Positions 1 through 18,671 of a DNA stretch of 20,367 bases are shown piece after piece. The stretch is from a virus. Each line of letters opens with the position of its first letter. The stretch's first letter is position 1. The DNA is taken from positions 1 to 20,367 of IMG/VR virus record IMGVR_UViG_3300042292_000125, one strand, 5' to 3'. A program made the translations under genes and the position numbers. The notes beneath the pieces are model-generated. The model saw nothing but the letters and a program-made list of their open reading frames with translations, was not told the origin of the DNA and ran no database searches.

Positions 1-26
1 TATGAACGCACGATCATGCCAATACT

Positions 27-57
27 ATGTCAGCATCGAAAAGGCAACTGCTGACAT
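27..57. repeat. Perfect 9-bp inverted repeat (hairpin)
   Basis: ATGTCAGCA (27-35) and its exact reverse complement TGCTGACAT (49-57) are separated by 13 nt. The transcript would fold into a stable 9-bp hairpin upstream of the SleB gene. It lacks a clean downstream T-tract (CGATTCTTAA follows), so a classical rho-independent terminator for a gene to the left is only a weak possibility. An mRNA 3'-end stabiliser or a protein-binding site are alternatives. Confidence 0.5.
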
Positions 58-108
58 CGATTCTTAAGGCCGACAACCTAAAGACAAAACTAAACAGGAG
101 GAAACGCT

Positions 109-645
109 ATGCGAACGATCTCACGATTGTTTCACAGAAATTTACTAACCTGGGCAAACCTGTCCATTGTTGTAATAGCAGTAACGGTAACATCACCTGC
201 ACACGCAAGTGAAGAAATAAACGCATCAACGCAACGACAATTAACGTGTCTAGCACAAAACATTTACCATGAAGCCGGTAGTGAAAGTTTTAACGGCAAA
301 GTAGCAGTAGCTCAAGTAACAGTTAATAGAGCTAACAATGGTAAATTCCCATCAACCATATGCGGGGTTGTACATCAAAAAACTCAAATAGCAGACCGGA
401 CTATATGTCAGTTCTCATGGGTTTGTGATCCAGTGGCAAAAGGTCGACGAATATATTCGAAAGCCTGGCAAGAAAGTCGAGAAATTGCACGTAGGGTATT
501 ACTCGACGGACTTAGATTGGAATCACTAGGCACTGAAGCATTGTATTTTCATAATGCTCGAGTACGTCCAAATTGGGGTCTTGAACGAATAGATCGTATC
601 GGCGGACATACATTCTACAGCGGTGATAAAGTCGCTGCAAAATAG
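109..645 (+). CDS. SleB/CwlJ-family cell-wall hydrolase, secreted
   Basis: Probable peptidoglycan hydrolase (Hydrolase_2 / SleB-like fold), acting on the host wall at lysis or during infection. The 178-aa protein begins with a basic segment and a hydrophobic stretch (about residues 15-30) ending in an AHA-S type signal-peptidase site near residue 33, so periplasmic export is likely. The mature part carries the family hallmarks: CLAQNIYHEAGSES (about residues 46-59, with the conserved Glu of the YHEA motif), VAVAQVTVNR, and CQFSWVCD followed by a stretch ending in ALYFHN. A strong Shine-Dalgarno (AGGAGG, 97-102) fixes the ATG at 109. It stands alone, and the next promoter starts right after its stop. 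Homologues are common in marine T4-like phages. The role as lysin versus spanin-like accessory is inferred. Confidence 0.87.
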   Translation: MRTISRLFHRNLLTWANLSIVVIAVTVTSPAHASEEINASTQRQLTCLAQNIYHEAGSESFNGKVAVAQVTVNRANNGKFPSTICGVVHQKTQIADRTICQFSWVCDPVAKGRRIYSKAWQESREIARRVLLDGLRLESLGTEALYFHNARVRPNWGLERIDRIGGHTFYSGDKVAAK

Positions 646-648
646 TCC

Positions 649-677
649 TTGACACCTTCACTAAATTCATGTATACT
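649..677 (+). promoter_or_regulatory. Sigma70-type early promoter P1
   Basis: TTGACA (649-654), a 17-bp spacer and TATACT (672-677) form a near-consensus host sigma70 promoter. It begins 3 nt after the stop of the hydrolase gene and points at the small gene at 751. The predicted transcription start is near 684. It is embedded in a perfect inverted repeat (separate entry). Confidence 0.85.
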
Positions 678-693
678 ATGTTTTTAGTGAAGG
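655..693. promoter_or_regulatory. Operator-like 11-bp inverted repeat across promoter P1
   Basis: CCTTCACTAAA (655-665) and its exact reverse complement TTTAGTGAAGG (683-693) flank the -10 box symmetrically (centre near 674). One arm fills the promoter spacer and the other covers the predicted transcription start. The half-site centres are 28 bp apart, close to integral helical turns, which suits a dimeric repressor. A related direct repeat, ACTAAAT(AT)TCATGTA, occurs at 660-673 and 696-711. The geometry is seen in the sequence; regulator binding is inferred. Confidence 0.6.
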
Positions 694-750
694 ATACTAA
701 ATATTCATGTAGCGACACAATTGCTATATAATTTAACTAAAGGACATACA

Positions 751-885
751 ATGTCAGATACTACAGACGCATTACCAATCCAACCATTACAAGAACAAAC
801 AACTCCAACTATTCCAAATGTCTGCCAAACTGGTGACAAAGAGTGTATAGCACGATTAATTCAAGCATTTTCGGATTGCGATTAA
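751..885 (+). CDS. Small unknown early protein (44 aa)
   Basis: A short reading frame immediately downstream of promoter P1, starting with ATG after AAAGGA (738-743). The product is 44 aa, begins MSDTTDALPIQPLQEQ, is rich in Gln, Thr and Pro in its first half, and has three Cys residues (about residues 26, 33 and 43) in the second half. The Cys spacing does not form a recognisable zinc knuckle. I do not recognise a family. Position directly behind a strong early promoter with an operator-like palindrome suggests a regulated early gene; a host-takeover peptide is only a guess. Support is the Shine-Dalgarno, the promoter, and the next promoter beginning just after the stop. Confidence 0.55.
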   Translation: MSDTTDALPIQPLQEQTTPTIPNVCQTGDKECIARLIQAFSDCD

Positions 886-892
886 ATAACGG

Positions 893-921
893 TTGACAAC
901 CCAACCAAAATAGCGTATAAT
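893..921 (+). promoter_or_regulatory. Sigma70-type early promoter P2
   Basis: Consensus TTGACA (893-898), 17-bp spacer, consensus TATAAT (916-921), located between the 44-aa gene and the gene at 954. The predicted start near 928 leaves a leader of about 26 nt containing AAGGAG. Confidence 0.88.
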
Positions 922-953
922 AGCACTTGTTTAGTTAATAAGGAGTGCGAATT

Positions 954-1163
954 ATGAGCTATGTAGTTTTCCAAAATGGTAAAGAATATGGCCCACGCAA
1001 GGGCTTAGAAGGTCCATTCCATTATCCAAACGGTCGTGTATTGTACTACGATGCACCCGCAGGCGAGTATTATGATCCCACAAGCGATTTTTACGTACCC
1101 AACGATGAAGTAGCAGAACTCCAACAATCAATCTTTACAAAGTTGAGTGCAGGATGTCCTTAG
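954..1163 (+). CDS. Small unknown early protein, Tyr/Pro-rich (69 aa)
   Basis: Start ATG at 954 is chosen because AAGGAG (940-945) sits 8 nt upstream; a GTG at 945 would lie inside that Shine-Dalgarno. The 69-aa product is rich in Tyr, Gly, Pro and Asp, with successive turns such as GPFHYPNGRV, YYDAPAGEYYDP and DFYVPNDE, which suggests a small beta-rich domain, and ends in a short helix. I do not recognise the family. It is driven by promoter P2 and its last 10 nt overlap the next gene, so the two are probably translationally coupled. Confidence 0.7.
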   Translation: MSYVVFQNGKEYGPRKGLEGPFHYPNGRVLYYDAPAGEYYDPTSDFYVPNDEVAELQQSIFTKLSAGCP

Positions 1164-1381
1164 AAGTTATTCGTGAAGTAACAGAGTGGAAGGTAGACTA
1201 TCGCCAGCCAAACCATGTTTACCTAATGAGTGGTGAACGGGTCATTGGTTATCAAAAATGGGGCGAAGGTCTTCCTATCTACTTCAATCACAAGGCCAAG
1301 TTTGACAAGCGTGGTCGCAAGTTTGAGAAGATTGCACTCAAAGATAGTCCATTTAAAACGGTTGACATTTTGGTAAAATGA
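1154..1381 (+). CDS. Small basic unknown early protein (75 aa)
   Basis: ATG at 1154 lies within the end of the preceding gene (10-nt overlap), typical of coupled phage genes. The 75-aa product (MSLEVIREVTEWKVDYRQ...) is rich in Lys, Arg and aromatics, with a GERVIGYQKWGEG turn and a basic KFDKRGRKFEKIALK stretch, so nucleic-acid binding is possible. The family is unrecognised. The -35 box of promoter P3 lies inside its final codons (1362-1367), and its TGA stop (1379-1381) falls within the P3 spacer, so the gene end and the next promoter are interlocked. Confidence 0.68.
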   Translation: MSLEVIREVTEWKVDYRQPNHVYLMSGERVIGYQKWGEGLPIYFNHKAKFDKRGRKFEKIALKDSPFKTVDILVK

Positions 1382-1390
1382 CTGTATAAT
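1362..1390 (+). promoter_or_regulatory. Sigma70-type early promoter P3
   Basis: TTGACA (1362-1367), 17-bp spacer, TATAAT (1385-1390). The -35 box lies in the 3' end of the gene at 1154. It drives the gene at 1423, with a leader of about 25 nt that includes CGGAGC. Confidence 0.88.
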
Positions 1391-1422
1391 GCTATACATA
1401 CACTAACAACACGGAGCAACTA

Positions 1423-1710
1423 ATGAAAAATCTAGCACAATACATTGAACAAAAAAATGCTTGGGCACGTATTTTCAATAATGTAACCTACGATGTTAAT
1501 AACTTATCAGAACGTGATTGTCAAAATTTGTATGATAGTTTAGACAATGATTTAAGCCCAGAGAACTTAACCTGCGATGGTGAACGTAGCGGCGTACAAG
1601 TTCGTCAATTTGCACGTTTTTATAACGCCGCAGCCAAAGAGTTAGTCACAATAATTCGTGCTAACAACTACACAATTCCATACTCAGATTTTCGCCAACT
1701 TAATTACTAA
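1423..1710 (+). CDS. Unknown early protein (95 aa)
   Basis: ATG at 1423 follows CGGAGC (Shine-Dalgarno at 1412-1417) and promoter P3. The 95-aa product is soluble, mixed charge and probably mostly helical, with motifs such as LSERDCQNLYDSLDNDL, VQVRQFARFYNAAAKEL and a C-terminal IPYSDFRQLNY. It has two Cys (about residues 35 and 52). I do not recognise a family. It forms a one-gene unit between two consensus promoters, the classic arrangement of phage early host-takeover genes. That role is inferred from position only. Confidence 0.72.
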   Translation: MKNLAQYIEQKNAWARIFNNVTYDVNNLSERDCQNLYDSLDNDLSPENLTCDGERSGVQVRQFARFYNAAAKELVTIIRANNYTIPYSDFRQLNY

Positions 1711-1715
1711 AGTAG

Positions 1716-1744
1716 TTGACAAGCACACGCAGAGGTGCTATAAT
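1716..1744 (+). promoter_or_regulatory. Sigma70-type early promoter P4
   Basis: TTGACA (1716-1721), 17-bp spacer, TATAAT (1739-1744), immediately after the stop of the gene at 1423 and upstream of the AAA+ ATPase gene. Predicted start near 1751. Confidence 0.88.
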
Positions 1745-1779
1745 TACGAATACTTAGAAAACAACAAAAGGAGCAATAA

Positions 1780-2805
1780 ATGACTGGTTTTGTTAAAATT
1801 AAAAATGGTAGTTATAGAAATACTGAAATTAAAAACGAAGTATTTCCACTTGTAAAACATTATACTGTTGGTGCTAAAGGCGGTTTTATTACTGTTGATG
1901 GTACAGGGCAGTTTGGTAAAGATAAAATTAGAGTATTAGTAGAAAGTCCTACAGACATTGAGTTTGTACACGCTGATGAGTATACAGGTGTAGTGGCTAC
2001 TAAAGAAGTAGACGCAACTAGCAAACAGTCAGACGAAGAACGTATTGCTGATATTGGCTTGCGTTTTGAAATGCTTGACGAAATGACTAAGGCAGTATTG
2101 AACGGTGATATACGTGCGATGATTGTAAGTGGTCCTCCGGGTGTGGGTAAAAGCTACACAGTGGAAGCACAAATTGACAAAGCAAACTTATTCCAAAACA
2201 TTGCTAACGCAAAACCTAAACACACTGTGGTTAAAGGTAGTGCTAGTGCTATTGGTTTGTACAAGGTATTGTACGAGTACAGTGATGCTAACAGCGTTAT
2301 TGTATTTGATGACTGTGATAGCATTTTGTTTGATGATGTTAGTTTGAACTTGCTTAAAGGTGCGTTAGACAGTGGCAAGTCACGTAAAATTAGCTGGTTA
2401 AGTGAGTCACGTGTGCTAAAACAAGAAGACATTCCTAACAGTTTTCAATTTAAAGGCAGTGTAATTTTTATTACTAACTTAAAATTTGATGCAGTTAAGT
2501 CACAACGTTTGAAAGATCACTTAGAAGCATTACAGTCACGCTGTCACTATTTAGATTTGACATTAGATACAATGCGTGATAAAGTATTGCGTATCAGACA
2601 GATTGCTAAACAAGGTGAGATGTTTAGTGACTTGGGCATTAGCGAAGTAGGACAAGATGTTATTATTGACTTTTTGGATGCTAACAAAAACAAAATGCGT
2701 GAAATGAGTTTACGTATGGCAATTAAAGTAGCACAGCTATACAAGAGTTTTCCTAACACTTGGGAAAGCATGGCTAAGACTACGTGCATGCGAGTTACTG
2801 CGTAA
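1780..2805 (+). CDS. AAA+ ATPase
   Basis: Probable AAA+ ATPase of 341 aa. Walker A is GPPGVGKS (about residues 119-126), Walker B is VIVFDDCD (about 173-180), and a sensor-1-like FITN lies near residue 230. An arginine-rich segment (QSRCHYLDL) follows and a helical lid-like C-terminus ends the protein. The first 85 or so residues form a beta-rich N-domain containing GGFITVDGTGQFG, probably a substrate- or partner-binding module. AAGGAG (1770-1775) precedes the ATG and promoter P4 drives it. Related ATPases occur in marine T4-like phages with no settled function; candidates include remodelling host or phage complexes early in infection. It is not gp44 (clamp loader) or gp41 by motif pattern. 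Confidence 0.82.
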   Translation: MTGFVKIKNGSYRNTEIKNEVFPLVKHYTVGAKGGFITVDGTGQFGKDKIRVLVESPTDIEFVHADEYTGVVATKEVDATSKQSDEERIADIGLRFEMLDEMTKAVLNGDIRAMIVSGPPGVGKSYTVEAQIDKANLFQNIANAKPKHTVVKGSASAIGLYKVLYEYSDANSVIVFDDCDSILFDDVSLNLLKGALDSGKSRKISWLSESRVLKQEDIPNSFQFKGSVIFITNLKFDAVKSQRLKDHLEALQSRCHYLDLTLDTMRDKVLRIRQIAKQGEMFSDLGISEVGQDVIIDFLDANKNKMREMSLRMAIKVAQLYKSFPNTWESMAKTTCMRVTA

Positions 2806-2877
2806 ACGATTTACAACGGTTGCCGTGATTGCGGGCCATAATATTTGCGGCAATACTAAAGTTTGAGGCATAATGAA

Positions 2878-3009
2878 ATGAAATTATTATTAGCAATGAT
2901 TTATAATTTAATCCTACTAGGAGGTACCGTTTACCTAGTAGGTTGGCAGGGTTGGAGTGCTTGGTGGTTCCTACTTACCGTAATACTTTTAGCTAGCGGT
3001 AAAGACTAA
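2878..3009 (+). CDS. Tiny Trp-rich membrane protein (43 aa)
   Basis: A 43-aa frame starting at ATG 2878 after GAGG (2865-2868). The product is almost entirely hydrophobic: a first membrane segment (about residues 3-16), a GWQGWSAWW interfacial turn, a second segment (about 29-39), and a short GKD tail. An ATG at 2873 in another frame stops after two codons. It is the first of three consecutive small membrane-type genes with good Shine-Dalgarno sequences. Function unknown; superinfection exclusion, membrane modulation or holin-like roles are possible but unproven. Confidence 0.6.
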   Translation: MKLLLAMIYNLILLGGTVYLVGWQGWSAWWFLLTVILLASGKD

Positions 3010-3020
3010 GGAGATTTAAT

Positions 3021-3164
3021 ATGGAATGGCAATATTGGTTAAGCGTGGTTTGGTTTGTGTTTATTGGTTATTGTTTTGGTCGTGCGCATGAATCTTGGGT
3101 CCGTTACGATGAAGCTGTAGATAAACTAAAAAAATTATCTGAAAAATTAGCTAACAAGGAGTAG
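3021..3164 (+). CDS. Small single-pass membrane protein (47 aa)
   Basis: ATG at 3021 follows AAGGAG (3008-3013) that overlaps the previous stop. The 47-aa product begins MEWQYWLSVVWFVFIGYCFG, one membrane segment, followed by a charged amphipathic helix ending KLKKLSEKLANKE. It is probably anchored with a cytoplasmic C-terminal helix. Its final codons (AAGGAG, 3156-3161) serve as the Shine-Dalgarno of the next gene, so the two are coupled. Family not recognised. Confidence 0.65.
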   Translation: MEWQYWLSVVWFVFIGYCFGRAHESWVRYDEAVDKLKKLSEKLANKE

Positions 3165-3167
3165 TAT

Positions 3168-3338
3168 ATGTGGAATAAAATTCGTTTTTGGTTGCATGAA
3201 AATGATCGACAACTAACATGGTTCTTCATTGGTTTATTTGTTATGTGTTTCTTTGTGGATATGGGTAAACAAAACTATCCGGGCGCAGTATTGGATGCTT
3301 TCATTGTAGGAATAAATTATATCCTCCGTCCTCGGTAG
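3168..3338 (+). CDS. Small membrane protein (56 aa)
   Basis: ATG at 3168 sits 6 nt after AAGGAG at the end of the preceding gene. The 56-aa product has a basic, aromatic N-terminus (MWNKIRFWLHENDRQ), one hydrophobic segment (about residues 18-31: WFFIGLFVMCFFVD), and a second moderately hydrophobic stretch near the C-terminus ending YILRPR. It is the last of the three-gene membrane cassette before fhs. Function unknown. Confidence 0.65.
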   Translation: MWNKIRFWLHENDRQLTWFFIGLFVMCFFVDMGKQNYPGAVLDAFIVGINYILRPR

Positions 3339-3356
3339 CATTAAATAGTAGTATCA

Positions 3357-4976
3357 ATGAAAACAGACATTCAAATCAACCAATCGGCCAACTTACTACC
3401 TATTACAGACGTTGCTAATTCCATCGATGTATGGAATGAACAATTGGAAGTATACGGCAGTAAGAAAGCCAAACTAAACATAGAAGCACTTGCTGACCGT
3501 CCTGGTCGAGATAGCAGGTTAATCTTAGTAACAGCGATAACACCAACACCTGCTGGTGAAGGTAAAACTACCACAACTATTGGCCTAGCAGATGGCTTAC
3601 GTAAGTTAAACCACAAGTCAATTGTATGTTTACGTGAACCTGCGCTAGGTCCAGTGTTTGGTATGAAAGGTGGAGCCACAGGTGGCGGCTATGCACAAGT
3701 AGCACCAATGGAAGACATTAACCTACACTTTACAGGTGACTTCCACGCTATTGCCTGTGCTCATAATTTACTAAGCTCAATGATAGACAATCACTTACAT
3801 TGGGGCAATGAATTAAACTTAGACACTAACAAGATCGTTTGGCGTCGTGTAAGTGAAATGAATGACCGTAGCCTGCGCAGTACTGTGGTGGGACTAGGTG
3901 CGCATAATAGTGTTACCCGTGAAGAAGGATTTGACATTGTGGTAGCAAGTGAAGTAATGGCTATCCTATGTCTAGCAGAAGACTTTAAAGACTTAAAGCG
4001 TCGGTTGGGAAAGATCACAGTGGGTTATACTCGTGATAATAAACCTGTTACAGCTAAGGACTTAAAAGCACATGGTGCTATGGCTGCACTATTAAAAGAC
4101 GCAGTTAAACCTAACCTAGTGCAGACCTTAGAAGGTACTCCTGCACTTGTACACGGTGGTCCATTTGCCAACATAGCACATGGATGTAACAGTGTTATTG
4201 CTACTAAGCTGGCAATGAAGTTAGCTGACTATGTGGTAACAGAAGCAGGCTTTGGTGCTGACCTAGGTGCTGAGAAGTTTATTAACATTAAGTGCCGTAA
4301 AAGCGGTCTACGGCCTGATGTAGTAGTGCTGGTAGCCACTATCAGAGCAATTAAGTATCAAGGTAATTATACCAACTTAGATAGGCATATTACTAACATT
4401 AAGACGCAGTATAACCTGCCTTGTGTAGTTGCTATTAATCGTTTTAAAGATGACACTGATCGAGAGATTTCAGACTTAATAGCCTACATCAGTAACACAT
4501 TTGACATTGAAGCAGTAGAGTGTACACACTTTGCCGAAGGCGGCGATGGAGCAGAGGAATTGGCACACGAAGTTATTATGGCAATTGATCAAAGTGTTCA
4601 GGCAATGGAGTTGACATATCGAGATGAAGATACATTATTATCTAAACTAAACAAAGTAGCTACACGGATATATAATGCATCGGGAATTAATATGGATGCT
4701 AAAGTATCAGCACACTTATATGAACTACAAAAGGACTACGGACACTATCCCGTTTGTATTGCTAAAACACAAAGTAGTTTCAGTGATGATCCCGCTAACA
4801 AATTAGCCGCAACATCTAAACATGTCTTAACAGTACGTGAGTTAAAACTGTGTACAGGTGCAGAATACATCGTAGCAGTCTGCGGTAACATTATGACCAT
4901 GCCAGGCTTGCCAGCACGGCCAAACGCAGAAAAGATCTCAATTGGTAAGGATGGTCGTATAGAAGGATTAGATTAG
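3357..4976 (+). CDS. fhs: Formate-tetrahydrofolate ligase (auxiliary metabolic gene)
   Basis: ATP-dependent ligation of formate to tetrahydrofolate, giving 10-formyl-THF for purine synthesis and formyl-Met-tRNA. The 539-aa protein is collinear with bacterial Fhs: N-terminal LLPITDVA, phosphate loop TPAGEGKTT (about residues 63-71), [56 protein letters not shown]-terminal [11 protein letters not shown] and [13 protein letters not shown]. Two oddities stand out. The loop that normally follows the ALKxHGG motif is missing (about 20 residues), which accounts for the length below the usual ~556. The usual Trp in the HWAxGG/VWAKGG motif is Phe392 (HFAEGGDG). The Shine-Dalgarno is poor (AGTAGTATCA). 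Arg codons are CGT-rich like neighbouring phage genes, suggesting long residence. It lies between phage genes, so it is an acquired metabolic gene, apparently intact. Confidence 0.95.
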
Positions 4977-6215: not shown

Positions 6216-7672
6216 TGGCAACCTGTAAAATTATAATTAAAGACGAAGTGAACTGTAAGTTAGATGGACTTGAACTTACAGAACGCAAGTATCTGGCCAA
6301 CAAATTTAAGTTTGAAATCCCAGGCGCACGTTATCTACCAAGTGTACGATTAGGTCGATGGGATGGCAAAGTGGCTTACTTTCAATTAGGCGGTAGCACA
6401 TATACTAACTTGCTGGCCGAGATGTTGCCCTACATAGATGAACGTGGTTATAATATCGAACTTGAAGATCTACGTGACTATCGTACACAGTTTGCATTTA
6501 CACAGGTGACAGAGCAAACGTTTGCGCACAAAGTATGGCCGGCTAAACATCCAATAGCGGGTCAGCCTGTTGTCTTACGTGATTATCAAATTGAGATTAT
6601 CAACAAGTTCTTAAGTAATCCACAGTGCCTACAAGAAATTGCCACTGGTGCAGGTAAGACCCTAATCACTGCGGCATTAAGTTATAGTTGTGAACCATAT
6701 GGACGAACTGTGGTAATTGTTCCAAACAAATCATTGGTAACACAAACAGAAGCAGACTATATCAATTTAGGCCTAGACGTTGGTGTATACTTTGGCGACC
6801 GTAAAGAGTTTGGACATACTCATACTATTTGCACTTGGCAAAGTCTAAACATCCTGCTTAAAAATACCAAGGCACACGAAGCAGACATTACCATAATGGA
6901 ATTTTTGGAAGGTGTTGTTTGCGTTATGGTTGACGAAGTACACATGGCCAAAGCAGATGCACTTAAAACTCTACTTACTAGTGTAATGGCACACATTCCA
7001 ATTCGTTGGGGATTAACAGGTACAATACCTAAAGAAATGTATGAATTTATGGCATTAAAATGTTCGTTAGGAGAGGTTTTAGGCAGGTTAAGTGCCAGTG
7101 AATTACAAGACCAGGGTGTACTTGCCAACTGTCACGTGAACGTTGTACAGCTAATAGACCATGCAGAATATAAAGATTATCAAAGCGAACTAAAATATCT
7201 ATTAGAGACTGACGCACGTATTGATTACATAAGTAAAATGATAGAGAGTATACGAGCAACTGGCAACACACTTGTCTTAGTTGATCGTATCGCTCCAGGC
7301 AAAGCATTAGTTGAACTAATTAAAGATGCTGTGTTTGTATCAGGAGGAACTAAAGCAAATGATAGGAAAGAAAGTTATGATGAGTTTGCAACCAGTGATA
7401 ACTTTGTTGCTGTTGCCACTTATGGGGTTGCTGCTGTTGGCATCAATATCCCTCGCGTTTTTAACCTTGTGCTCATTGAGCCTGGTAAGAGCTTTGTTAG
7501 GGTCATCCAGAGTATCGGGCGTGGCATTCGCAAAGCGGAAGACAAGGACTTCGTCCAAATCTGGGACGTAACATCAACTTGTAAGTTTGCCAAGCGGCAT
7601 CTTACAGTCAGAAAGAAATTCTACACAGAAGCTAAATACGATTATAGTATAGCAAAGACTGAGTGGAAATAA
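6215..7672 (+). CDS. uvsW: UvsW-like DNA helicase
   Basis: SF2 helicase of the T4 UvsW type (485 aa; T4 UvsW is about 500). UvsW unwinds R-loops and Holliday junctions and regresses stalled forks, switching T4 from origin- to recombination-dependent replication. The small N-terminal DNA-binding domain is visible (about residues 1-75, with RLGRWDGKVAYF matching the UvsW hallmark). RDYQIEIINKFL (Q-motif region) follows, then motif I ATGAGKT (about 144-150), IVPNKSLVTQ (Ia), motif II VDEVH (about 238-242), motif III LTGTI (about 267) and motif VI QSIGRGIRKA (about 431). All key residues are present. It is coupled to the preceding HARP-like gene by a 1-nt overlap, and a homing endonuclease gene follows directly. 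Confidence 0.93.
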   Translation: MATCKIIIKDEVNCKLDGLELTERKYLANKFKFEIPGARYLPSVRLGRWDGKVAYFQLGGSTYTNLLAEMLPYIDERGYNIELEDLRDYRTQFAFTQVTEQTFAHKVWPAKHPIAGQPVVLRDYQIEIINKFLSNPQCLQEIATGAGKTLITAALSYSCEPYGRTVVIVPNKSLVTQTEADYINLGLDVGVYFGDRKEFGHTHTICTWQSLNILLKNTKAHEADITIMEFLEGVVCVMVDEVHMAKADALKTLLTSVMAHIPIRWGLTGTIPKEMYEFMALKCSLGEVLGRLSASELQDQGVLANCHVNVVQLIDHAEYKDYQSELKYLLETDARIDYISKMIESIRATGNTLVLVDRIAPGKALVELIKDAVFVSGGTKANDRKESYDEFATSDNFVAVATYGVAAVGINIPRVFNLVLIEPGKSFVRVIQSIGRGIRKAEDKDFVQIWDVTSTCKFAKRHLTVRKKFYTEAKYDYSIAKTEWK

Positions 7673-7674
7673 GT

Positions 7675-8352
7675 GTGTTAATTAAAAACAAATATAGTAA
7701 CTGGTATATGAATATCATCGATACTGCCCGAACAACTAACAGAAAAAAGGGAACAGGCATCGAGCGCCACCATATAATTCCTAAATGCATGGGCGGCAGT
7801 AATACAAAAGATAATTTAGTTTTATTAACTGTGCGCGAACATTTTGTGTGTCATTTATTGTTAACTAAGTGTACAGATGGAAATAATCGATATCGTATGT
7901 TACATGCAGTTGGGAAATTTATACAAAACTCACCTTTACAACAAAGAAAATTTACATCCTGGGAATATAAAAAAATACGCGATAGTATATCAATTGCTCA
8001 CACAGGAAAGAAACATTCAGCTGAAACACGAGAAAAAATGTCTGCCAATGGCAAAGGCAGAATTCCCTGGAACAAAGGAATTACAGGTATAGTCCATTCT
8101 GATGAATCTAATAGAAAACGTTCAGCAACTATTAAAGGAAGAAAAATGTCGCCTGAATTTTGCCAAAAAGTAAGTGATGGCAAAAAAGGAAAGGTAGCCG
8201 GAATGATTGGCAAGACACATTCCGAGGAGACCAAACAGTTAATGAGTAAAAACATGTCTAAACCCAAAGGTCCTCAAAAGAGAATTGATGAGTGTCCACA
8301 TTGTAAAACTAAAACAGTAACAGTAAGACATATTAAATTTTGTAAGAAATAA
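7675..8352 (+). mobile_element. HNH homing endonuclease with NUMOD3-like repeats
   Basis: Free-standing homing endonuclease of about 225 aa. The N-terminal HNH domain reads YSNWYMNII... then ERHHIIPKCMGGSNTKDNLV and LTVREHFVCHLLL (catalytic His-His pair, Asn, and later His). Three NUMOD3-type DNA-binding repeats follow: GKKHSAETREKMS, GRKMSPEFCQKVS and GKTHSEETKQLMS. The C-terminus is a CPHCKTKT...HIKFCKK zinc-finger-like tail. There is no ATG near the domain start. GTG at 7675 (2 nt after the uvsW stop) is preferred; GTG at 7663 would overlap uvsW. Base composition is more A-rich than its neighbours, as expected for a mobile gene. It probably spreads by cleaving the cognate intergenic site in related phages lacking it. 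Confidence 0.9.
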
Positions 8353-10704: not shown

Positions 10705-11276
10705 AATTTAAAAGCGACATAGATATAGATTTTGCCGACCGTGAACAGATAATTCGTTTACTTGATGTCACACCTGCTAGTATATTACGTGATGGTAAAC
10801 TAGTACGTCACAACACAGGTGTGTATGCTACTGATGTTCCTGTGGATCCATTTACTGGGCAAGCAAGTTTAGATTATGACCTAGCTGAAGATAGAGGCTA
10901 TGTTAAACTAGACTTTTTAAATGTCAATTTGTATAAGCAGGTTAAGGACGAAGAACATTTAGTTGAGCTTATGCAGGAACCGGACTGGACAAAGTTATAT
11001 GACCCAGAAGTTTGTGCAAAACTAATGCATGTTAATGGGCACTATGATTTGTTATTACAGATGCCTGAACCTGTAGATACTATTCCTAGACTGGCTATGT
11101 TCCTAGCTATTATTCGTCCAGCTAAACGTAATCTAGCTGGCAAGACCTGGAAAGAAGTAGCGATGACTGTGTGGGATAAACCTGCGGATGATACTTATTA
11201 CTTCAAACGTGCCCATGCCGTTTCCTACGCACAACTTGTAGTCGTTAATATGAATTTGTTAGACACGTCTAACTAA
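10701..11276 (+). CDS. Mini-DnaE-like protein (C-family polymerase core remnant)
   Basis: 191 aa containing, in order, segments matching the DNA polymerase III alpha (DnaE/PolC) core: DIDIDF (residues 6-11, the third catalytic-Asp motif), RHNTGVYAT (36-44, cf. HAxGVVI), YVKLDFLN (67-74, cf. LxKxDFLG), DTIPRLAMFLAIIRPAKR (126-143, cf. DIIALxALxRPG) and YYFKRAHAVSYAQLVV (166-181, cf. FNKSHAxxYALxxY). The PHP domain and the GSA...DPL palm segment with the first two catalytic aspartates are absent, and spacing is compressed, so it is unlikely to polymerise alone. A regulatory, scaffold or DNA-binding role is inferred. It overlaps the previous gene by 4 nt, and its 3' end overlaps the minus-strand gene by 18 nt. 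Confidence 0.78.
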   Translation: MKFKSDIDIDFADREQIIRLLDVTPASILRDGKLVRHNTGVYATDVPVDPFTGQASLDYDLAEDRGYVKLDFLNVNLYKQVKDEEHLVELMQEPDWTKLYDPEVCAKLMHVNGHYDLLLQMPEPVDTIPRLAMFLAIIRPAKRNLAGKTWKEVAMTVWDKPADDTYYFKRAHAVSYAQLVVVNMNLLDTSN

Positions 11277-11639: not shown

Positions 11640-11647
11640 TATAAATA
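11640..11647 (+). promoter_or_regulatory. T4-type late promoter (TATAAATA), + strand
   Basis: Perfect TATAAATA at 11640-11647. By T4 spacing, transcription would start near 11653, 16 nt before the GTG at 11669 with AAGGGA (11654-11659) as Shine-Dalgarno. It precedes a virion-type gene, as expected for a gp55-dependent late promoter. Confidence 0.8.
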
Positions 11648-17426: not shown

Positions 17427-18671
17427 ATGAAACTTAACGAATTTAAAAATAACAATAGAGCATACCTATACGAAGGGTTAACTCCTAAGCATAAAAAATT
17501 AATGCAACTATGGGAAAGTGTGGGCACTAAATTAGTCGAAGCACAACTAACGCAAGATCAGATTAGACAGTTATTCCAACAAGTAGAGAAAGGTGCTACA
17601 GCAGGCGGCACTAACCGTACTGCTATTGGTAAAGGTAAAGATGTGGCTAGTGCAGTAGCTCAAGCATACAAAGACTTAAAAGCAAAAGCAATCAACAGCG
17701 AACCGATGCAAAAAGCAGATGCGCTATATGATCAAGCAGCAGAAAAATTAAAACAAGCAACCGGCGGTGATGCCGGAGTTATGCAGTATGTACAAAAGTA
17801 CAGAAACTTTGCTAAAGCGCATCCTGTTGCACAGAGTTTAATCTACGGTGCTCTTATTGCAGCCGCAGGTATTACGGGTGCCGGAGCAGGCGGTGCTGCC
17901 GCACTAGGTCTATTTAAAATTGTAGACAAACTTCTACAAGGCGAGAAGTTTAGCACAGCCGCAGTAGCAGGTGCTGAAACAGGCGCATTGGCATACGGTG
18001 CAGGGCAGCTTGGCCAAGCTGCACGGGGTGGAGATCAAACAACCACAACGTCTACAAACTACAGTCAGTCTACAGATGGTATGCAGGCAACATGGCCATC
18101 ACAAGGAGTAGTACCGCCGGGAATATTAGAAAGATTTCCTCCGGGTTCGTACGAATATACGCAAAATGGTGACTATTGGGAAGTTCTTGATGCCAACGGT
18201 AATAAAATGGCCAACTTTACAGTTGACTCAATGAATGAGTCTTTTGTGTTGACTTCAGCTCAAATTAGATTGTTATTTGAAGGTATAATTGTAGAAGCAG
18301 AGCTATGGAATCAATTTAAATCTGGTATAGGACAAGCTGCCGGCGCGGTGGCAGATAAAGCAAAACAAGTTGGCAAAAATATCACTACTAAGGTTACCGC
18401 AGATAAACTACAAAACGCATGGGTAGCCGCAGGCAGTCCGACTGACAGTGTTGGGGTAGGTAAGATTTTAACTGGTGCCGGTATAGATCCAGAAACAGTA
18501 AAAACAGCCATGCAGTCTATAGGGGTAGAACCAGCAACTGCTACACAACCAGATTACAGCAGAGTACCAGATGTTAGTAAATTGACTCTACAACAAAAAC
18601 AAGAGTTACTAGCACAGTTAGACGCATTAGATGCACAGCAATCTACAGTTAAACAATCGACAGCGCCATGA
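17427..18671 (+). CDS. Putative internal head protein 2, multiple prohead-protease sites
   Basis: 414 aa. The N-terminus MKLNEFKNNNRAYLYE|GL is a capsid-targeting-like leader (cut after Glu16). Further L/I-x-E|A/G sites occur at KLVE|AQ (after 38), LLFE|GI (after 285) and IIVE|AE (after 290), suggesting processing into several peptides. The processing points sit next to two related motifs, LTQDQIRQLF (about 41-50) and LTSAQIRLLF (about 275-284). The middle (about 135-200) is Gly/Ala-rich and hydrophobic (SLIYGALIAAAGITGAGAGG), resembling a membrane-inserting glycine-zipper segment. The C-terminus VPDVSKLTLQQKQEL matches that of protein 1. It starts 2 nt after the preceding stop and ends in an ATGA overlap. 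A packaged, possibly membrane-active ejection protein is inferred. Confidence 0.75.
   Translation: MKLNEFKNNNRAYLYEGLTPKHKKLMQLWESVGTKLVEAQLTQDQIRQLFQQVEKGATAGGTNRTAIGKGKDVASAVAQAYKDLKAKAINSEPMQKADALYDQAAEKLKQATGGDAGVMQYVQKYRNFAKAHPVAQSLIYGALIAAAGITGAGAGGAAALGLFKIVDKLLQGEKFSTAAVAGAETGALAYGAGQLGQAARGGDQTTTTSTNYSQSTDGMQATWPSQGVVPPGILERFPPGSYEYTQNGDYWEVLDANGNKMANFTVDSMNESFVLTSAQIRLLFEGIIVEAELWNQFKSGIGQAAGAVADKAKQVGKNITTKVTADKLQNAWVAAGSPTDSVGVGKILTGAGIDPETVKTAMQSIGVEPATATQPDYSRVPDVSKLTLQQKQELLAQLDALDAQQSTVKQSTAP

Follow-up and report, generated by a model that had tools for sequence, protein, structure and literature searches.

A palindrome around an early phage promoter as the possible DNA image of an RNA hairpin that silences the next gene on readthrough RNA

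In classical dyad operators, an inverted repeat lies over the -10 box or the rest of the promoter and over the transcription start site. In bacteriophage T4, the start sites of e (lysozyme), soc, 49 and I-TevI are closed on long early RNA, and late promoters beside the 5' hairpin strand, or within it, yield free RNA of e and I-TevI (PMC3014915, PMC2988022). By lying inside the sequestering hairpin, such a promoter keeps the late translation of a late gene apart from early translation. In the case of I-TevI, the promoter is also overlain by an operator to which the protein itself binds (PMC2988022). The locus analyzed here belongs to a complete IMG/VR virus record of 20,367 bases (hereinafter, the window), in which a palindrome with perfect 11-nt arms brackets the -10 box of an early promoter behind a cell-wall hydrolase gene (Table 1). 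As in e, soc and I-TevI, the promoter is located within a putative sequestering stem-loop, and a longer RNA would carry both strands of the stem; as in the nested T4 type, the left arm is upstream of the predicted start, so that the promoter's own RNA would lack the 5' strand of the helix. Unlike the T4 cases, the nested promoter is of the sigma70 type (TTGACA-17-TATACT) rather than late (TATAAATA), so that by promoter type the window element is not a member of the T4 class; it stands behind a lysis-type gene and would seal an early gene, so that the presumed time order is reversed; and in one group of relatives (family B, below) the stem is made of coding sequence. The inverted repeat covers the promoter and the start like a classical dyad operator, from which it differs in that the relatives show wobble covariation and arms that change with the downstream gene. 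It also resembles the I-TevI autorepression operator in that a regulatory sequence overlaps a promoter and a hairpin, the difference being that the records searched yielded no second site and that no endonuclease or other binding protein is known here. Among the titles and abstract openings of the open-licence PMC literature, the jumbo-phage and operator angle included, we found the T4 reviews and work on other matters, but no account of an early promoter enclosed by a hairpin of this kind.

The interpretation that we favor, and to which we assign somewhat better than an even chance, is that the palindrome reflects, at the DNA level, an RNA hairpin forming around the early promoter and silencing the next gene on readthrough RNA. 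Under this scheme, an early sigma70-type promoter wrapped by the hairpin would mark the point at which the hydrolase operon gives way to the early block. Readthrough RNA from the hydrolase gene would hold both arms and fold into the hairpin. The Shine-Dalgarno sequence or the AUG belonging to the first early gene would then be contained in the 3' arm, which would prevent translation of this gene from such RNA; RNA of the nested promoter would start in the loop or the right arm, lack the left arm and be translated. With the readthrough RNA blocked and the promoter's own RNA free, the gene would be made only from its own promoter.

Table 1. Features of the window at the junction between the hydrolase gene and the early block
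Feature	Position	Strand	Basis or remark
Cell-wall hydrolase gene, 178 aa	109..645	+	Pfam Hydrolase_2 3.5e-23; PHROG endolysin 2.3e-19
GUCCUU, predicted outer helix with AAGGAC 740-745	645..650	+	fold; weak
-35 box TTGACA	649..654	+	begins 3 bases past hydrolase stop codon
Left arm CCTTCACTAAA	655..665	+	within promoter spacer; would form 5' strand of hairpin on readthrough RNA
-10 box TATACT	672..677	+	in putative hairpin loop
Right arm TTTAGTGAAGG	683..693	+	over predicted transcription start ~684 (from -10)
Leader of 44-aa ORF	694..750	+	comparison with L005, L098, L102, L104; contains the 'direct repeat' noted earlier
44-aa ORF MSDTTDALPIQ...	751..885	+	present first gene behind promoter; no family match

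The preliminary description of this locus reported a perfect 11-bp palindrome around the -10 box, one arm in the spacer and the other over the start, as a feature particular to one early promoter. This observation is confirmed and its coordinates are exact: the dyad is centered on the -10 box, at 674, and, of the four strong early promoters in the block (649, 893, 1362 and 1716), only the near-consensus one at 649 (score 11/12) has such arms. With two mismatches allowed, the inverted repeat extends to 655-670/678-693. The partial direct repeat also reported downstream consists of the letters given but is not part of the device, being the leader of the 44-aa ORF. Taken alone, the bare inverted repeat is unusual to a modest degree only: the window has three places where perfect arms of 11 nt or more lie within 30 nt of each other, the mean over 150 shuffles being 0.23, and at least one such pair appeared in 27 of the shuffled windows. 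A search of window positions 1-3500 against Rfam gave 0 matches up to E = 1, and no named phage in the phage collection searched matched the window at the DNA level, its protein relatives there showing less than 60% identity.

In nine other IMG/VR records (L102, L103 = L005, L104, L105, L106, L107, L108, L109 and L098), which together with the window we denote family A, the hydrolase gene is likewise followed by this promoter. All nine family-A records found retain the palindrome, conservation in relatives being one of the points on which the preliminary description had staked its proposal. The alignment comprises seven sequences, six of them distinct, with L106 standing for the seemingly identical L106-L109 and L225 for L098; the core TTCACTAA-N19-TTAGTGAA is invariant across the six. 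The 15 pairs formed by the six members compared share 38-43 of 43 promoter bases. The window and L106 have 41 of the 43 bases in common at only 50% identity of hydrolase third codon positions, and the window and L102 agree at 17 of 17 spacer positions, whereas the spacer of the neighboring promoter differs. Such retention, along with the recurrence of different palindromes at one junction (see below), argues against the least probable of the explanations considered here, namely, that the inverted repeat has no special function and is a by-product of a conserved strong promoter, for which the frequency of perfect arms in shuffled windows speaks. Within family A, 11 of 14 pairs never vary and there is no covariation, so that this family is silent on the question of RNA versus DNA. 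Its strictness exceeds the demands of pairing alone, and the invariant arms thus leave room for a DNA-binding protein. L002 and L003, which have some of the AAA proteins nearest to that of the window, lack the core, and the promoter is absent, among the matches listed, from hydrolase genes at 60% identity or less. A scan of viral sequences with the gap left free between 13 and 25 yielded 20 stretches, with a gap of 19 in L083, L098 (family A) and L094 (an unrelated repeat).

The right arm merges into the AAGGAG Shine-Dalgarno sequence of the next gene in L005, L098 and L106-L109, where ATT AAA AT., at Shine-Dalgarno distance, opens a gene for (I/M)KIGFSFGRC...; L105 has ATG at the position of the ATT codon. 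In the window, L102 and L104, this gene is lost and a small-protein ORF (44 aa in the window) is next; in L005, the same ORF is located downstream of the IKIGFSFGRC gene. It is because of this loss that the stretch AACTAAATATTTGCATGG..., the leader of the 44-aa ORF, adjoins the palindrome. The window, L102 and L104 keep the arms despite the loss, and the start of their next ORF is not sealed. The main weakness of the window as a case for the RNA model is precisely that the gene controlled in the relatives is gone, so that the surviving element is possibly either a working insulator or a recent relic. As a separate observation, the apparent ATT start of the IKIGFSFGRC gene (L005:2858; L098, - strand, about 8507; L106:3583) has AAGGAG 7 nt upstream and an in-frame stop before it in three distinct sequences, and ATT is possibly a natural start codon here, as judged from these sequences.

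Palindromes of other kinds occupy the same junction in related phages. We scored dyads near the -10 box in 457 strong promoters (461 found) from 81 loci, and the five top scores (L025, L002, L005, the window and L015) are all at the hydrolase junction. A score of at least 11 was reached by 5 of the 457 promoters and by 8 of 1779 shifted control positions; because the controls also yield strong dyads, the special feature is the place. In a wider survey of 262 hydrolase genes (a redundant set) with 30 loosely defined junction promoters, a good TTGAC -35 box was present in 16 of the 30, and every one of these 16 had a palindrome score of at least 7, compared with 81 of 457 promoters in general; the 14 junction promoters with weak boxes scored 4-6. 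The arms and the downstream genes differ between family A (TTCACTAA), family B, L002, L213 and L017. Family B includes a CTATAG type (L209-L212), a CTATCACT type (L214-L218) and a CTCTATTAT type (L233); its next gene encodes a product that starts M..R, then NWG.HGNP, and its right arm is the start codon and first codons of that gene. The next gene of L002 and L213 has ...IATA., and that of L017 is yet another gene.

The evidence that bears most directly on RNA versus DNA comes from family B, where the left arm, which is promoter spacer, alters whenever the coding sequence in the right arm alters. Among family-B members, which are not independent of one another, 94.5% of the cells are paired and nine cells, in three pairs, are changed on both sides; the number of paired cells, the number of doubly changed cells and the covariation score were each unmatched in 500 shuffles, and two measures that count pairs or types were matched by 136 and 199 of the 500. 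Across six distinct sequences, every cell of the 14-bp core is paired, and the five distinct departures from Watson-Crick pairing are all sense-strand G-U, none being A-C. If only double-stranded DNA mattered, A-C would be expected equally often, so that sense-strand G-U alone is the signature of an RNA rather than of an operator. As far as aligned sequences can tell, this covariation between spacer and start points to RNA pairing.

The preliminary description had suggested control by a phage or host repressor. As an operator, the palindrome would offer such a repressor two TTTAGTGAA half-sites 27 bp apart, in the spacer and over the start, and its binding would exclude RNA polymerase. We regard such an operator as possible, although unlikely and not favored over the RNA hairpin. 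It would account naturally for a dyad centered on the -10 box, for half-sites invariant in all six distinct family-A sequences, including those without the downstream gene, and for the loss of the outer CC/GG pair in L102/L104, L105 and L106 while the core stays; moreover, T4 I-TevI combines a protein operator and a sequestering hairpin at one promoter (PMC2988022). Against it stand the unrelated arm sequences, with sense-strand G-U pairs, at the same junction in relatives, where the spacer co-varies with the start of the next gene. The suggested search for the half-site elsewhere did recover it at the junction in relatives; nevertheless, across whole records, the palindrome occurs once in each of seven family-A records (7/7), with no second operator copy, the half-site is not found elsewhere in the window beyond chance, and, in nine records, one-mismatch half-sites do not clearly outnumber those of a reversed control. 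A single operator per genome would suggest autoregulation or a host protein, and the operator interpretation names no candidate regulator. Altogether, the earlier interpretation is partly supported: the element is particular to one early promoter and strongly conserved, but control by a repressor is not supported.

Nor does an operator shared with bacteria appear tenable. A scan of genome contigs for TTCACTAA-N7-TANNNT-N6-TTAGTGAA gave 10 matches, none at a homologous place: eight (L192-L194 and L197-L201, from Lachnospiraceae/Eubacterium) precede a TnpB-like ORF, and L195 and L196 are elsewhere. Given this placement and the unremarkable stability of the L199 RNA (z -0.09), we rejected a shared operator and treat the likeness as convergence. 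In its own right, the arrangement in Lachnospiraceae consists of TTCACTAA-N19-TTAGTGAA about 18 nt upstream of the TnpB-like ORF (MEQMTVTAKIQ..., with a zinc ribbon recognized by eye), and is perhaps the promoter palindrome of an IS605-type element; among the viral contigs L187, L189 and L191, two have the TnpB-like arrangement and the third a similar ORF.

The RNA hairpin interpretation predicts that the start of the next gene is closed on readthrough RNA only. We quantified such sealing, for 328 distinct promoters preceding an ATG ORF, as the difference (readthrough minus own) between the costs of opening the start region on the two RNAs. The seven largest predicted differences, 15.4-18.5 kcal/mol (mean of all, 2.5; sd 3.4), belong to family-B junction promoters. 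In this automatic run, in which ATT was disallowed, family A was given wrong or distant starts and is not outstanding (L105 4.2, L106 0.2, L102 -0.1, L005 -0.5). We then set the start codons of 12 cases by hand and compared each case with 300 shuffles of its upstream 65 nt; predicted sealing was 14.8 versus 2.3 in L005 (0/300 shuffles as good), 12.4 in L098 (1/300), 8.3 in L106 (10/300) and 10.8 in L105 (14/300); outside family A, it was 8.1 in L213 (11/300), 10.4 in L002 (14/300) and 12.3 in L017 (0/300), with 0/300 shuffles as good in L022 and 2/300 in L025. It was not significant for the window (31/300), L104 (136/300) and L102 (276/300). Thus, according to the folding model, the cases with an intact first gene support sealing, whereas in the three members that have lost this gene, the window included, sealing of the present first gene is not significant. 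The readthrough RNA of the window is itself predicted to be unusually stable (z -5.38), and the outer helix 645-650/740-745 touches the Shine-Dalgarno sequence of the 44-aa ORF, though too weakly to count. The corresponding z values are -1.88 (L005), -0.26 (L105), -3.17 (L102) and -1.86 (L106) in family A, and -6.31 (L025), -3.09 (L022), -6.02 (L002) and -6.69 (L233) in others. A weak comparison between junction and internal promoters, split by promoter spacing too crudely to carry weight, gave p 0.026 in a rank test and p 0.076 for a cut at 8 kcal/mol or more (12/158 versus 4/142). The AUG of family B is predicted to be leaderless, and its readthrough RNA might be translated poorly even without the hairpin. 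Separately, L003:2368, the first promoter behind an upstream operon that has no hydrolase, shows a predicted hairpin over the AUG (stem 13 bp, difference 9.6 kcal/mol), a fold not clearly beyond shuffles (13/200 as good).

That readthrough would reach the junction is suggested by the operon context. In the 177-kb record of L102, the junction promoter is at 10740 and the next upstream strong promoter on the same strand is at 18069, 7.3 kb off, with an epimerase/dehydratase gene and glycosyltransferase-like ORFs in between; the lack of a strong sigma70 promoter over this distance places the junction at the far end of a long operon, where it enters the early block. In the window, a terminator scan found no terminator-like site from the hydrolase stop to the promoter, and reading the stem itself as a terminator was rejected because no T-run follows it. 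The latter point also weighs against the highly improbable alternative that the hairpin is the 3' end of the hydrolase mRNA, stabilizing or ending the message, and that the early promoter overlaps it through genome compactness. This would fit the position of the hairpin, which begins about 10 to 15 bases past the hydrolase stop in families A and B; it does not fit the family-B stem, which is formed by the opening codons of the next gene, start codon included, and follows coding changes there, or the more distant phages, in which the hydrolase gene mostly adjoins a co-directional gene with a Shine-Dalgarno sequence that begins at the stop codon and replaces the promoter. A T4-type late promoter before the hydrolase gene was likewise rejected: TATAAATA occurs once per strand in the window, the + copy at 11640, and not near 1-108.

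Among the 47 promoters of the L102 record, the junction promoter is second for duplex strength across the start. The strongest, G001:166740 (- strand; L324:6740), is predicted to have a nested hairpin over the Shine-Dalgarno sequence (z -2.91) and precedes an HD-domain gene (Pfam HD_4 7e-16), behind a short lipoprotein-like ORF; a pattern search did not find this element in six relatives. This second nested hairpin suggests a general device. With slightly more doubt than confidence, we entertain the broader proposition that, in a group of large T4-related phages, the early-promoter spacer is selected to be antisense to the next start and is rewritten along with the downstream gene, which would make it a sequence-independent insulator at boundaries between lysis operons and early blocks, a mirror image of the late-gene hairpins of T4 through which an early gene would be made only from its own promoter. 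If the RNA hairpin interpretation is correct, uncultured relatives run the nested-hairpin trick with host-type promoters and in the opposite direction, and evolution preserves the pairing while the letters change. There would then be a rule for finding phage genes that are silent on readthrough RNA and, conversely, a warning that a promoter palindrome is not necessarily an operator.

Several other features of these records deserve mention. Terminator-like stems with U-tracts (GGGC-TTTTTTT) occur behind the AAA gene in L029, L032, L036, L037, L054, L075 and others, where they adjoin the TTGACT -35 box of the promoter that follows, itself apparently leaderless, as fused terminator-promoter units. 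The record of the closest relative carries a gene for a Gram-negative porin (L316:18660-19901, - strand; Pfam Porin_4 2.5e-21), which offers a clue to the host and, perhaps, to superinfection exclusion. In the window, a NUMOD3/HNH homing-endonuclease-like gene (7663-8352) overlaps the end of the UvsW-like helicase gene, and the early region encodes a full-length formate-tetrahydrofolate ligase (3357-4976; Pfam FTHFS 2e-233), which is present in the L102 record as well.
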